Positions 6,290 through 44,192 of a stretch of 44,322 nt of DNA are shown here, piece after piece. The number at the start of each line of letters is the position of its first letter. Position 1 is the first letter of the stretch. A model generated the notes under the pieces. That model saw nothing but the letters and a program-made list of their open reading frames with translations, had not been told where the DNA came from and ran no database searches. Source of the stretch: a virus; the IMG/VR virus record IMGVR_UViG_3300006929_000030, positions 1 through 44,322 of that record. One strand, 5' to 3'. The position numbers and the translations under genes were made by a program.

Positions 6290-6664
6290 ATGTCAACAGA
6301 AGAAGTTAAGATATTTGATGTTACAAATTATACGGTTAGAACTAACACAAAAAGAGAAAAAATAGTTATAGAAGAAACCGGAGATGAATTTGAAATTTCT
6401 GTTAAGCCTTTAAGTTGGGCTAAACGCAATCAGTTAATTAGTGACCATATGAATTGGGATGCTAATGGAAATACCTCATTTAATGCTAGTAATTATATGC
6501 GGGCTTGTTTACGTGAAATGATAGTTGACGCGCCATGGGGAAAAACAACAGAAGGATTTTTAATTTCAATAGATGAACGTTTAGGTTCTGCATTAGAAAA
6601 AATTGTGCCACAAGCATTTGGAACAGAAGGCGGTGTGGACATTGACGCGACAAAAAAAGAGTAA
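6290..6664 (+). CDS. Tail assembly chaperone, G-type product
   Basis: 124 residues starting behind AAAAAGGAG. It has the N-terminal charged beta segment and central helices usual for the first of the two chaperone products that load the tape measure before tube polymerisation. Just before its stop codon lies a run of seven A residues at which ribosomes can slip -1 into the next frame, producing a longer G-T protein. Position between tail tube and tape measure is diagnostic for this family even though sequence is poorly conserved. Confidence 0.75.
   Translation: MSTEEVKIFDVTNYTVRTNTKREKIVIEETGDEFEISVKPLSWAKRNQLISDHMNWDANGNTSFNASNYMRACLREMIVDAPWGKTTEGFLISIDERLGSALEKIVPQAFGTEGGVDIDATKKE
6652..6658 (+). 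promoter_or_regulatory. -1 ribosomal frameshift site (A AAA AAA, then G)
   Basis: In the frame of the upstream gene the codons are ACA AAA AAA GAG TAA, giving the slippery heptamer A AAA AAA six bases before the stop. The -1 frame is open from here through the next ORF, whose first own ATG is only at 6691. This is the standard arrangement in tail assembly chaperone genes. No stimulatory structure was identified by eye. Confidence 0.75.
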
Positions 6665-6894
6665 AAGCCTTTCTTACAGGCGCGGTAAAAATGCCGTATG
6701 CAGAAGGGCTGAAATATGAGTATTGGATTGTTATGTTATCATTGTTAAAAAAAGGTATTCCGTATGATGTGTTAAGCGAATTAACCACTAATGAAATGTA
6801 TACCGTTATTTCTGTAAGTTCCGCGTTAGAGGAACGGGAAAATGACGAACTACAACGTCAACACAATCTAGCAATGAACAAAAGGAGTTTTTAA
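6658..6894 (+). CDS. Tail assembly chaperone, T domain reached by -1 frameshift
   Basis: Reading from the slip site gives RVKAFLTGAVKMPYAEG and onward, 78 residues added to 123 residues of the upstream product, for a fusion of about 201 residues. The domain is helical, with a predicted buried segment YWIVMLSLLKKGIPYDVLS and a charged tail. Independent initiation at the ATG at 6691 is less likely because no ribosome-binding site precedes it. The GT form would bind the tape measure or tube subunits while G alone acts in excess. Confidence 0.7.
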   Translation, partial: RVKAFLTGAVKMPYAEGLKYEYWIVMLSLLKKGIPYDVLSELTTNEMYTVISVSSALEERENDELQRQHNLAMNKRSF

Positions 6895-13389: not shown

Positions 13390-13395
13390 AAAAAC

Positions 13396-13423
13396 TTGCA
13401 TTTTAAAATATGTATGCTACCAT
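13396..13423 (+). promoter_or_regulatory. Promoter: TTGCAT-16-TACCAT with extended TGC
   Basis: TTGCAT at 13396-13401 and TACCAT at 13418-13423 are 16 bases apart, with TGC directly before the -10 (extended -10). The same TGCTACCAT occurs at 14816-14824. It drives the gene at 13458, whose leader has AAGGAG. TACCAT fits the actinobacterial -10 consensus TASSDT. Confidence 0.65.
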
Positions 13424-13457
13424 GACTACATAAATTAAAGTTAAGGAGCAAACAACA

Positions 13458-13967
13458 ATGGTTACAAAACTTACAAATTCAAAAGGAAAAACCTCTAAAA
13501 CTAATAGCACCATGATGGAAGCGTACGGAGACGAGTATCAGACGTATTATTCGCCAAGAGACATTAAAACCAGTCTTTGGGTGTGTGAAGACTGCAAATT
13601 AGTTTGGACACGAAAACATCAAGCAGAAAGTTGTGGAGAAGGAACGTATCCTGTGTATGATTCATATGGTTTTGGGGAAACTTACTCGCGTAATCACTGC
13701 ACATCTTTTCCTCAATGGTATGTCAATCGTTTGACAGGGAAAAAATACTACTATATGCGAAACGCCATTGGACGTATGGTTAATGGCAGACTTCAACCAA
13801 TTAAACAAGTTGAACACTTTGAGGGAGCTCCATTAAAATCTAAGATTGTGGACACAGAAGTTGAGCAGGAAGTAAAATCATTTAACAGGGAACATGATAA
13901 TTTGAGCGGATGGACCGAAGAGCAAATAGACTACCTAGAACTATGTGTTGACCTACAGGAGTATTAA
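13458..13967 (+). CDS. Hypothetical zinc-ribbon protein, first gene after a promoter
   Basis: 169 residues preceded by a promoter and AAGGAG. Residues 43-62 hold VCEDCKLVWTRKHQAESCG, a C-x2-C...H...C zinc site. The middle is aromatic-rich (YPVYDSYGFGETYSRNHC, KYYYMRNAIGRM) and the C terminus helical and acidic. No family recognised. First-gene position of a likely early operon suggests a host-takeover or regulatory role, unproven. Confidence 0.55.
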   Translation: MVTKLTNSKGKTSKTNSTMMEAYGDEYQTYYSPRDIKTSLWVCEDCKLVWTRKHQAESCGEGTYPVYDSYGFGETYSRNHCTSFPQWYVNRLTGKKYYYMRNAIGRMVNGRLQPIKQVEHFEGAPLKSKIVDTEVEQEVKSFNREHDNLSGWTEEQIDYLELCVDLQEY

Positions 13968-13968
13968 A

Positions 13969-14184
13969 ATGATTATGGGTAATTCACTTCCGACTCATTG
14001 CTCTATATGCGATATAGCACTTTATCCAGTGCCTAAAAATACCTTTATAGCGGGCCACAATGCTAGACCCATTAGTGAGGATAATTGTTGCACCAAGTGC
14101 TTAAATACCGTAGTTATACCGAAACGTAAAAAGCTAATTGAGGAATTAAGAGCAAAAAAAGCAAATGAAGCTAACGCAAGATAA
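13969..14184 (+). CDS. Small zinc-finger protein
   Basis: 71 residues from the ATG at 13969, chosen because CAGGAG lies seven bases upstream; an in-frame ATG at 13945 has no such site and would overlap the previous gene by 23 bases. Two C-x2-C pairs (HCSICDIALYP and CCTKCLNTV) separated by about 30 residues form a probable single zinc site, followed by a basic helical tail (PKRKKLIEELRAKKA). A nucleic-acid-binding role is possible. Confidence 0.6.
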   Translation: MIMGNSLPTHCSICDIALYPVPKNTFIAGHNARPISEDNCCTKCLNTVVIPKRKKLIEELRAKKANEANAR

Positions 14185-14793
14185 TAAACTTTATATTCCT
14201 GACTCCGATAATTGGTGGTGGCGTGAAGGTTACGAGAACAAACAATTCTTGGAAACCATGAAGCATGTGCCTAATAAAGGCGTTGCTATAGATGTTGGAG
14301 CCCATGTAGGTATATGGACTAGACGATTAGCCGAAATTTTTACTAAGGTACATGCATTTGAACCTGTTCCAGACCATGTTGACTGTTGGAAAGTTAATAC
14401 CCAGACCTATGCAAATGTGTTTTTAGAACAAGTGGCATTATCTAATATAGCTAAAGCTACCAAAATGAAACAAACTAAACATAATTCTGGAGTTTCCAGC
14501 CTTGTTTATAAGCCAAATTTACTTAAAACAAGCGTTGAGATAAACGTTTCAACCCAAACCTTGGACAGTTTTAACTTAACTAATGTTGATTTTATCAAAA
14601 TTGATGTGGAACGACACGAGTTAGAGGTGTTAGAAGGCGCTGAAAATACTATAAATACATATTCGCCAGTTATTTTTATTGAAATAGATGATAGCGAAAG
14701 AAAAAACCTATCAATGCCCATAGTTGGTTATTAAATAAAGGCTATAAAGAATTTCTAGTGATGAGTTCAAGCAATTATTTGTTTAAAAAATAA
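14165..14793 (+). CDS. FkbM-type SAM methyltransferase read through a -1 frameshift
   Basis: The in-frame part is 189 residues ending at 14734. Motif I is AIDVGAHVGIWTRRLA (about residues 41-56), then the acidic strand VHAFEPVPDHV, VDFIKIDVERHELEVLEGA and VIFIEIDDSERKN, the signature of FkbM-family O-methyltransferases. The family's C terminus (Leu-x-x-Lys-Gly-Tyr ... Asn-x-Leu-Phe) is missing in this frame but present in the -1 frame directly after A AAA AAC at 14701-14707: PINAHSWLLNKGYKEF then SSSNYLF, stop at 14791-14793. So either programmed frameshifting, a recent mutation or a homopolymer sequencing error. Overlaps the previous gene by 20 bases. Substrate unknown; sugar or small-molecule methylation is usual in the family. 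Confidence 0.65.
14701..14707 (+). promoter_or_regulatory. Candidate -1 slippery heptamer A AAA AAC
   Basis: In the zero frame the codons are AGA AAA AAC CTA, so the heptamer is phased exactly as X XXY YYZ. A -1 slip restores the conserved C terminus of the methyltransferase. No strong downstream stem-loop was seen. Confidence 0.5.
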
Positions 14794-14795
14794 GG

Positions 14796-14824
14796 TTGTA
14801 TATTTATTAATACTTTGCTACCAT
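14796..14824 (+). promoter_or_regulatory. Promoter: TTGTAT-17-TACCAT with extended TGC
   Basis: TTGTAT at 14796-14801 and TACCAT at 14819-14824 are 17 bases apart, and TGC precedes the -10. It closely resembles the promoter at 13396 and lies just ahead of a 42-codon ORF with its own SD and downstream terminator. Confidence 0.65.
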
Positions 14825-14855
14825 ACATATATTAAATTTTAGGAGAATAGACACC

Positions 14856-14984
14856 ATGAACTTAGAGTTAACCGAAAAACAAATACAACGAGTGTTAAAA
14901 CACTTACATGATACCGATTCCGAGCTTTGGAAAATTATTCAAAGGCAATATATGAAAAGTATGATAAATAGTACCTCCTTATAA
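14856..14984 (+). CDS. 42-residue protein in its own promoter-terminator unit
   Basis: ATG at 14856 is preceded by TAGGAG with ten bases spacing. The predicted peptide starts MNLELTEKQIQRVLKHL and is a charged amphipathic helix. It is flanked by a TACCAT promoter upstream and a strong terminator at 15031, so it appears to be expressed alone. No family recognised; small early phage proteins of this type often inhibit or redirect host enzymes, which is only a guess here. Confidence 0.55.
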   Translation: MNLELTEKQIQRVLKHLHDTDSELWKIIQRQYMKSMINSTSL

Positions 14985-14986
14985 TT

Positions 14987-15028
14987 CATTGTCTCATTAG
15001 ATTCACTGTACGGTCTTTTGAGATAATG
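14987..15028 (+). ncRNA. Stem-loop between mini-gene and terminator
   Basis: CATTGTCTCA (14987-14996) can pair with TGAGATAATG (15019-15028): nine Watson-Crick pairs and one G-U, with a 22-base loop. It is followed three bases later by the terminator hairpin. Together they could form the 3' end of the mini-gene mRNA or a small structured RNA. A non-coding function is speculative. Confidence 0.4.
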
Positions 15029-15030
15029 TT

Positions 15031-15072
15031 AATACCCCTTAGCTTTGTGATTTTAGTTAAGGGGTATTTTTA
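15031..15072 (+). terminator. Rho-independent terminator
   Basis: AATACCCCTTA (15031-15041) pairs with TAAGGGGTATT (15058-15068), an 11-base stem with a 16-base loop and GC core CCCC/GGGG, followed by a T run (15067-15071). It ends the unit driven from 14796. Confidence 0.8.
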
Positions 15073-15085
15073 ATTAATTCGTGTG

Positions 15086-15091
15086 TATAAT
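15086..15091 (+). promoter_or_regulatory. TATAAT placed for a leaderless mRNA
   Basis: TATAAT lies just after the terminator and ends six bases before the ATG at 15097, so transcription would start at or next to the start codon. There is no SD upstream of that ATG. The -35 region is poor, and the expected site overlaps the terminator stem. Confidence 0.4.
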
Positions 15092-15096
15092 ATAGT

Positions 15097-15363
15097 ATGT
15101 ATTACTCATTAAATGATTTCGATGAATTATCAAAATTAGCGACTGAGGCTAAACCATTTTTTCCTAGCGAACCTGAATTAGCTGTGGAATACTTTGCTCA
15201 GTTTTACAGTCATTTAATTTCGGCATTGATTGTAACTAATGTGTGGGCTTATTTAGAAGCTGAGGTAATTTTAACAACAGGAGATAGAACGGACCCATTG
15301 CGAGCATCTCGAAAATGGCGTCCTACAGATTTTTTGAATTATCAAAAAAAGTTAAGGAATTAA
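15097..15363 (+). CDS. Hypothetical protein, likely leaderless
   Basis: 88 residues, first gene of the replication-side operon after the terminator. The sequence is helical (DELSKLATEAKPFF, LAVEYFAQFYSHLISALIVTNVWAYL) with a moderately hydrophobic centre and a basic C terminus (RASRKWRPTDFLNYQKKL). No family recognised. No SD precedes the ATG, consistent with initiation on a leaderless transcript. Confidence 0.5.
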   Translation: MYYSLNDFDELSKLATEAKPFFPSEPELAVEYFAQFYSHLISALIVTNVWAYLEAEVILTTGDRTDPLRASRKWRPTDFLNYQKKLRN

Positions 15364-15365
15364 AT

Positions 15366-15623
15366 ATGGATAAATATAGAATAGGAATACCTTGTATAGA
15401 AGGTGTAAAATTAGGATTAGCCTTTAATAGTCGATTAAATGACGGTTCTTTATTAGCTAAGGCTAGAGAAACATATAAAAATGATGATGCTATTGGCGGA
15501 ATCTTTGCAGATAAAAAAACATTGCTTAACGCAATTACGGATGCGGTGGGTCCATCGGGTAAACTTAGTATTCAAGAATGGGCGAGTATAGGAAAAGCGT
15601 TAGGCATTTATACGGATAAATAA
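15366..15623 (+). CDS. Hypothetical small protein
   Basis: 85 residues from the ATG at 15366, preferred over an in-frame upstream ATG at 15315 because AAGGA lies just upstream and it avoids a 49-base overlap with the preceding gene. It has a helical C-terminal half (KKTLLNAITDAVGPSG, IQEWASIGKALGIY). No family recognised. Its stop directly abuts the thermonuclease ATG. Confidence 0.55.
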   Translation: MDKYRIGIPCIEGVKLGLAFNSRLNDGSLLAKARETYKNDDAIGGIFADKKTLLNAITDAVGPSGKLSIQEWASIGKALGIYTDK

Positions 15624-16052
15624 ATGTACACATATAAAATAAAAAGTATTAATCGAATTGTTGACGGAGATACCATAGACGTAACTTTGGATTTAGGATT
15701 TGACATACTATTAAATCAACGAGTTAGGTTGGCTGGTATTGATAGTCCTGAAAAACGAACACGGAACAAATTAGAAAAACGATTAGGTTTGGACGCAACT
15801 GAGTGGTTGACCAATAAATTGCATAATGCCACAACAACAGTAATTAAAACCTCAATTGACGGGTCCATGGGTAAATATGGTAGGGTTTTGGGATGGCTGT
15901 TCATTAATGATGATGATGTAAGTTTGAATGATTTAATGATAACAGAAGGCTATGCCTGGGTTTATGATGGCGGTTCTAAAGAAAAAAACTTTGATGATTT
16001 AATTCAAATTCGAAAACAGAATAATACGATTGAAGAAAAAACGCTCGTTTAA
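15624..16052 (+). CDS. Staphylococcal-type thermonuclease (SNase) domain protein
   Basis: 142 residues, one OB-fold SNase domain. Catalytic residues are all present and even carry the same numbers as the staphylococcal enzyme: R35 and D40 in RVRLAGID, E43 in SPE, R87 in GKYGR; the calcium-side Asp motif VDGDTIDV is at 13-20. There is no signal peptide, so it acts inside the cell, probably on host DNA or RNA during takeover or nucleotide recycling. It precedes the replication genes. Confidence 0.85.
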   Translation: MYTYKIKSINRIVDGDTIDVTLDLGFDILLNQRVRLAGIDSPEKRTRNKLEKRLGLDATEWLTNKLHNATTTVIKTSIDGSMGKYGRVLGWLFINDDDVSLNDLMITEGYAWVYDGGSKEKNFDDLIQIRKQNNTIEEKTLV

Positions 16053-43060: not shown

Positions 43061-43417
43061 ATGAAACTCAATCTTAATTTAGCTACCATTAGTGTGCTGG
43101 TAGGCTTCGCGACTCAGATTGGTGGAGGAGTTTGGTACTTATCTCAGATAGATGCCGCGGTAGCTTCTAATTCAAACAGTATTCAAAAGATACAATCTAC
43201 TTTAGATGAACAACCCTACGATTATTTAAATGCAACGGTAGAAAGTTTAACTAATAGAGTGGATGAAATCTCAATGACTGACTTACTTACACTGTTCCAA
43301 ATGGGCGGTGATGAAATGGATGAAATATCGGACAGATTATCCGAGCTAGAAAAATTAAATTCCTTGATAGAGCTTAAGCTGGAGATGCTTGCAGTACAAG
43401 GAGCAGGAGGGTCATAA
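43061..43417 (+). CDS. Membrane-anchored coiled-coil protein, family member 2
   Basis: 118 residues, ATG one base after the preceding stop. Transmembrane helix at about 8-27 (ATISVLVGFATQIGGGVWYL), then the shared junction WYLSQIDAAV and coils NSIQKIQSTLDEQ, VESLTNRVDEIS and ISDRLSELEKLNSLIELKLEML. It overlaps the next gene by one base. Similarity to 43417 and 43770 products at the WY-x-S-x-(I/L)-D junction indicates duplication. Confidence 0.6.
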   Translation: MKLNLNLATISVLVGFATQIGGGVWYLSQIDAAVASNSNSIQKIQSTLDEQPYDYLNATVESLTNRVDEISMTDLLTLFQMGGDEMDEISDRLSELEKLNSLIELKLEMLAVQGAGGS

Positions 43418-43770
43418 TGGATATAAAACTTGGAAATATAAAACTTTCATTAGGTATAATTGTTACCATTGTCTTACAGGCTGCCGCGCTAATTTGGTAC
43501 GTGTCCTCACTAGATAGCCAAATGTCTGCCAATACGACGCAAATAGATGAATTAAAAACACAACTCGAACGATATCAGGAACTAGATGCGAAAAGCTCAT
43601 CTCAACTAGAAGGACGGTTAGACCAAGTGGAGCAAGTTCAACGCGTAATTGATAATGAGATGAGGACTATAATGTCTGACCATTCTGGCTTTAATGATGT
43701 GCTTAAAGAATTAAATAATGCGGGTCTATTACCTAGTGGCGAGAAGCGAGAATACGGAGGGTATTACTGA
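43417..43770 (+). CDS. Membrane-anchored coiled-coil protein, family member 3
   Basis: 117 residues starting on the previous stop. N terminus MDIKLGNIKLSLGIIV resembles member 2 (MKLNLNLATISVLVG). Transmembrane helix about 11-29, junction IWYVSSLDSQM, then coil TTQIDELKTQLERYQELDA and LEGRLDQVEQVQRVI. The C terminus (SGEKREYGGYY) is unique. Starts and stops overlap by one base at both ends, typical of a translationally coupled array. Confidence 0.6.
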   Translation: MDIKLGNIKLSLGIIVTIVLQAAALIWYVSSLDSQMSANTTQIDELKTQLERYQELDAKSSSQLEGRLDQVEQVQRVIDNEMRTIMSDHSGFNDVLKELNNAGLLPSGEKREYGGYY

Positions 43771-44192
43771 TGAATAATTTAAAAGTACCTATAGCTGTGG
43801 TAGGCGTTATATTAGTACAAGCCTTTGCGGTGATATGGTATATGTCCAATCTAGATGCTACTGTAAAAAGATTAGATGATACAGTAAGCAACTCTGCCAT
43901 AGAACGATTTGGCATAATGGAGACTGAGATAGAAAATCTAAAGGGTCGTTTATTGTCTGAAGGCTCTGCTGAGATGGCAAAAGATGTTGGAGAACTAGAC
44001 ATGAGAGTTTCGGAAATAGAGGAACTGTTATTGGAATGGTCAGACCAAAATGTATTCCATATACACGATGAAGACTTCGATAAGAAAATCGACCAGAAGG
44101 TAACTTCCCTTAGACAGAGGATTAAGAAGCTGGAAGATAACCAAGCCACAATTTTCGAAGAAGCCCGTGGTATTAAATCAAAGGTGAAATAG
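43770..44192 (+). CDS. Membrane-anchored coiled-coil protein, family member 4
   Basis: 140 residues. Transmembrane helix about 7-26 (PIAVVGVILVQAFAVIWYM), junction WYMSNLDATV, then coils (METEIENLKGRLLSEG, MRVSEIEELLLEW, VTSLRQRIKKLEDNQATIF). The longest copy; its C-terminal extension carries an acidic His-containing segment (NVFHIHDEDFDKKI). The next gene starts one base after its stop. Confidence 0.6.
   Translation: MNNLKVPIAVVGVILVQAFAVIWYMSNLDATVKRLDDTVSNSAIERFGIMETEIENLKGRLLSEGSAEMAKDVGELDMRVSEIEELLLEWSDQNVFHIHDEDFDKKIDQKVTSLRQRIKKLEDNQATIFEEARGIKSKVK

Follow-up and report, generated by a model that had tools for sequence, protein, structure and literature searches.

An FkbM-family methyltransferase gene of a tailed phage is interrupted at an A-run, probably by a recent small homopolymer indel rather than by programmed frameshifting

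The window analysed here, which is the whole 44,322-base virus record (36.8% G+C), comes from a tailed phage whose terminase, portal, major head protein, tail chaperone and sigma-factor genes hit PHROG families. We found that its FkbM-family methyltransferase gene changes reading frame at a run of six adenines close to the end of the gene, and that the last part of the enzyme is encoded in the -1 frame. The break was probably caused by a recent small homopolymer indel, either a real one or an assembly error, rather than by a programmed frameshift. The original prediction had offered both recoding and a mutation or homopolymer error as explanations; our comparisons favor the second, with recoding retained as a minority rival, because the break is a singleton homopolymer break in a cargo gene, the closest relative is continuous, and no stimulators of frameshifting were found.

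The zero-frame ORF (14165-14734, + strand) starts with the ATG at 14165, ends with the TAA at 14732-14734 and encodes a protein of 189 aa. The -1 frame, which is preceded by a stop at 14692-14694, is open from 14695 and encodes the remaining FkbM C terminus up to the stop at 14791-14793 (14695-14793, + strand), with no further stop within this tail. The two frames share a single overlap of 37 nt (14695-14731, + strand), in which A AAA AAC is located at 14701-14707 on the same strand. The first A of this heptamer is codon position 3, and the motif is thus exactly phased as a -1 slippery heptamer of the X XXY YYZ type, as originally described. The peptide encoded by the -1 frame after the zero-frame part is KKPINAHSWLLNKGYKEFLVMSSSNYLFKK.

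The zero-frame protein belongs to the family PF05050 (Methyltransf_21), with a score of 66.3 bits against a curated cut-off of 22.7, and the gene also matched PHROG 8156, a methyltransferase. The Pfam match halts at position 151 of 173 in the zero frame (coverage 1-151), whereas joining the -1 tail extends the coverage to 1-172 of 173 and raises the score to 69.0 bits. Using a family profile built from 98 relatives, we found that the zero-frame protein scores 201.1 bits and the read-through protein 214.1 bits, a gain of 13 bits; the read-through score was reached by none of 1000 shuffled tails and by one of 500 stop-free pieces drawn at random from the window. Since the Pfam coverage is extended and the profile gain beats the shuffled and random pieces, these sequence comparisons identify the -1 tail as the genuine C-terminal end of the FkbM enzyme. 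Both parts of the earlier claim, that the zero frame ends at 14734 without the expected C-terminal part and that this part is intact in the -1 frame to 14793, were confirmed. The description of 14165-14793 as an interrupted methyltransferase gene also holds, with the correction that it is one interrupted gene and that roughly the final 29 residues are all that its short product is missing. For the tail, a small gene of its own or one that re-initiates was also considered, and this was rejected, as the tail aligns as a direct continuation of the FkbM domain.

A first protein search for relatives of the gene gave up to 41% identity, and matches that were both longer and closer came from an alignment-based search. 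The closest relative among them, L276, shares 43% identity with the read-through protein across 213 columns, and its sequence across the position of the break, encoded in a single frame, is EVLHKELKKPYTGLDALRDLGYTQIMHVGSGNYIFKK. When L276 was used as a query against the window, two matches were obtained, one in the zero frame (L276 residues 1-189, 158 bits) and one in the -1 frame (residues 184-213, 40% identical, 26.2 bits), which starts from base 14701, and the two meet at the A-run. The ELKKP of L276 is aligned with ERK|KP of the window, Lys-Lys-Pro being common to both. The presence of Lys-Lys-Pro at the same spot in one frame of L276 therefore places the break within the A-run. In L276 this spot is encoded by the codons CTT AAA AAA CCA and, because Lys-Lys-Pro is encoded by AAA AAA CCA after CTT, there is no in-phase slippery heptamer. 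An alignment of homologs had been proposed originally as the way to see whether the shift and the heptamer are conserved, and an uninterrupted relative without the heptamer had been named as the result that would speak against the proposal; L276 is such a relative. A homopolymer indel predicts a break within a homopolymer together with a continuous relative, and both are found here, in the A-run and in L276. The tail is about as conserved relative to L276 (40%) as the remainder of the protein (43%) and is free of stops, which suggests that the break is either young or compensated.

We then compared the position at which the FkbM ORFs of the family end. Family ORF sets of 204 and 86 ORFs gave 170 distinct sequences, some of which are probably truncated copies of one gene; the 98-member set used for the profile was obtained after the removal of one long ORF, one short ORF and 104 duplicates. 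Beyond the point matching residue 176, 168 of the 170 distinct ORFs extend by at least 28 residues, compared with 13 residues for the zero frame of the window. The two exceptions were L313, whose ORF runs to the end of its contig, and L174, in which the break is at another place. No other family ORF among the 170 distinct sequences ends at the same point as the window's zero frame. The gene in L174 (L174:58-860, a Cyanobium contig) is itself an FkbM gene in two frames, with a break position unlike that of the window. Two FkbM genes near each other were observed in several viral contigs (L029, L030, L049 and L071-L074).

These comparisons bear on programmed -1 frameshifting, by which slipping at A AAA AAC would yield a 189-aa short form and a 209-aa form with the full fold, and which we regard as unlikely. 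The heptamer is in phase within the 37-nt overlap, and the family-like tail is intact with no further stops, as this explanation would predict; however, the break is absent from the family members, and L276 is continuous without the heptamer. The conservation of break and heptamer expected of a programmed -1 frameshift was thus not seen among relatives that are at most 43-45% identical and, because the relatives are no closer than this, a lineage-specific slip site is possible. Such lineage-specific recoding, in which slipping at A AAA AAC would let a cargo gene yield some of its FkbM methyltransferase at full length, is rated slightly lower still. If it were true, ribosome slipping would set the dose of an enzyme that probably modifies surfaces.

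Closer relatives were sought in several ways. DNA searches of the phage collection, near as well as distant, found no matches, and neither did a search of viral contigs for the DNA pattern at the junction that allowed 0-3 free bases behind the sixth A, a search that may leave out very near records. Protein searches with the DNA polymerase and the gene at 13458 gave no useful near relative, and the FkbM proteins in the phage and genome collections were only distant. The FkbM break is a singleton within the searchable sequences. According to an excerpt of a survey of frame transitions in prokaryotes (PMC3711429), singletons are to be taken as probable indels or errors of sequencing, and cases that cluster as recoding candidates. 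A scan of the window for frame breaks against the ORFs of 80 terminase-relative loci, which is blind to short tails, found none; in the control, the scan misses breaks near gene ends and recovered the known FkbM break only at E 3-6 and with 2 of 98 relatives. The scan showed nothing to suggest that the contig is rich in errors throughout, a result that counts against the indel explanation but proves little.

Among 12,995 segments of 37 nt from the window's other genes, in-phase A AAA AAC was present in 52 (0.4%), in-phase A AAA AAN in 216 (1.7%), and A6 in any phase in 4.4%. The coincidence of an A-run with the frame break exceeds chance, and this coincidence is predicted both by slipping of the ribosome and by slipping at a homopolymer during replication or sequencing. 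The other 54 genes that were counted contain in-phase A AAA AAC six times, no break of the frame being seen there, and the heptamer alone is therefore not special. The same motif is located in the C-terminal zone of the uninterrupted FkbM genes L029 (both copies), L178 and L179, which also counts against frameshifting, and 21 of the 98 relatives, these included, carry an in-phase heptamer or an A-run of at least six in the 90 nt past the PVIFIE column and are unbroken. The case most likely serves as no more than a caution: an AT-rich gene with a homopolymer indel can be expected to show exactly such a perfectly phased slippery heptamer, and the closest relative is more decisive than the motif.

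Further points against frameshifting came from the search for stimulators. The predicted 3' structure after the FkbM heptamer was no better than that of shuffled sequences (z +1.1, +1.0 and +0.8), the Shine-Dalgarno-like words AGGA, GGAG, GAGG and GGGG were all absent from the 30 nt upstream of the heptamer, and Rfam gave no matches on 14500-15100. Neither a 3' structure nor an upstream Shine-Dalgarno-like element, the stimulators expected of a programmed -1 frameshift, was thus found.

The tail assembly chaperone gene of the same phage served as a comparator, predicted from its sequence to be a real programmed frameshift. Its G-like part (6290-6664, + strand) contains the slip site A AAA AAA at 6652-6658, and its T-like -1 extension of 80 aa runs from the slip site (6652-6894, + strand); a 3' hairpin of -19.5 kcal/mol (z -3.0) follows. 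The gene was present in 13 of 26 related records, of which 12 were examined (G004 was left out). An in-phase A-run heptamer is present in each of the 12, as A AAA AAA in 11 cases and as A AAA AAC in one, together with a -1 frame that is 71-86 aa long. A conserved programmed site has this appearance in the clade. The locus with A AAA AAC at the predicted slip position is L258, from the record with the best match, and A AAA AAC is for this reason probably slippery in these hosts. These predicted A-run slip sites in the phage and in its nearest relative count in favor of frameshifting at the FkbM gene, the probable slipperiness of A AAA AAC being the strongest argument for it. The downstream structure is weak at some tail-chaperone sites of the clade (-1.5 kcal/mol in L260 and -2.0 kcal/mol in L261), and Shine-Dalgarno-like words are absent at 10 of the 13 sites, the window included. 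Seen against these tail-chaperone sites, the lack of both stimulators in the FkbM gene is by itself a weak argument.

In favor of programmed frameshifting, A_AAA_AAC appears as the g-t shift site of the archaeal virus HCTV-2 in an excerpt of a review (PMC5009743). Methyltransferases are named among the phage genes known to contain a frameshift in an excerpt of the PRFect paper (PMC10885494). No report of a frameshifted phage FkbM gene was found in titles and abstract openings. PMC5974055 was considered as a precedent and rejected, as the slippage site proposed in the excerpt seen lies in another gene, R5. If recoding were true here, a phage would be setting the dose of a cargo enzyme through slipping ribosomes, in a gene that is not a tail gene.

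Two further explanations also involve the A-run itself. FkbM enzymes are often associated with surface glycans, which counts for reversible phase variation, in which length changes of the A-run at replication would toggle the full-length methyltransferase in the phage population. The break in a homopolymer and the tail that is still intact also agree with this explanation, and slipped-strand mispairing at homopolymers is described as a known cause of phase variation in the excerpt of PMC3711429; however, the run has just six A's and is in no way distinctive on a + strand with 46 exact A6 runs, 18 A7 runs and one A8 run, and we consider phase variation very improbable. The position of the A-run at the break would also suit transcriptional slippage producing full-length mRNA, but programmed realignment is said in the same excerpt to take A-runs longer than 7 (PMC3711429), and with six A's this is the least credible of the explanations.

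The FkbM gene is located in a cargo segment of 2.65 kb (13390-16044, + strand), which lies between the sigma-factor gene and the gene at 16045 and contains the FkbM gene, small unknown ORFs and an SNase-type nuclease gene. In L270 and L271, the nearest records by tail chaperone, the homolog of the 16045 gene follows the sigma gene within 50 nt and the cargo is absent. In four other records, about 0.66-0.68 kb separates the sigma and helicase matches, with no FkbM match. An FkbM gene was found in none of the terminase-relative records tested (0 of 47 and 0 of 8, together 0 of 55, with 4 of 4 positive controls recovered), which are a part of the 80 terminase-relative loci, many of them fragments; a ninth additional record, from the polymerase search, also had no FkbM match. 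The FkbM gene is cargo, and the phage would probably survive its loss. The ORFs at 13458, 13975, 15097 and 15366 had no match among 275 loci besides the window's own record. Elsewhere in the genome, at 43061-44192, three consecutive ORFs of 117-140 aa share a similar initial membrane segment (WYxSxLD-like) and look by eye like tandem copies.

What the interruption removes was read from a predicted structure of the closest relative. AlphaFold2 gave a model for L276 with a mean pLDDT of 92.9, and the best PDB match of this model is 2py6, an FkbM methyltransferase. The residues of L276 that correspond to the -1 tail (184-213) form the last helix (189-195) and the last strands (198-205 and 208-213) of the model, so that the complete FkbM fold is not encoded in a single reading frame of the window. 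Because the last helix and two strands are missing, the 189-aa product is probably unstable or inactive, as judged from this model, and a short form without these elements also argues against programmed production of two forms.

Under the favored explanation, a small gain or loss of bases within the A-run (14701-14706) would have placed the last ~29 codons of the FkbM gene in the -1 frame. The indel may be a mutation of the phage, either a population variant or a pseudogene at an early stage, or it may be a mistake in the consensus of the metagenome. The phased look of the heptamer would come from the coding of Arg-Lys-Lys-Pro with an A-run that starts at a third codon position, and an occasional slip of the ribosome back into frame could still give a little full-length enzyme, although no sign of a programmed signal was seen.

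Compared with known systems, the interrupted gene is like other members of the FkbM family (PF05050, 2py6) in that its zero-frame part scores above the family cut-off and the L276 model matches 2py6 best, but its C-terminal part is out of frame, whereas the compared members are continuous. It is like the programmed -1 frameshift of tail chaperones of the lambda G/GT type in that an A-run heptamer stands in phase a short way ahead of the zero-frame stop; in the tail chaperone, however, the A-run site and the -1 frame are kept in 12 of 12 relatives, whereas the FkbM break occurs in no relative. No difference was seen from a homopolymer frameshift mutation or sequencing indel, with which the gene shares a single A-run break, its singleton occurrence and an intact downstream frame.
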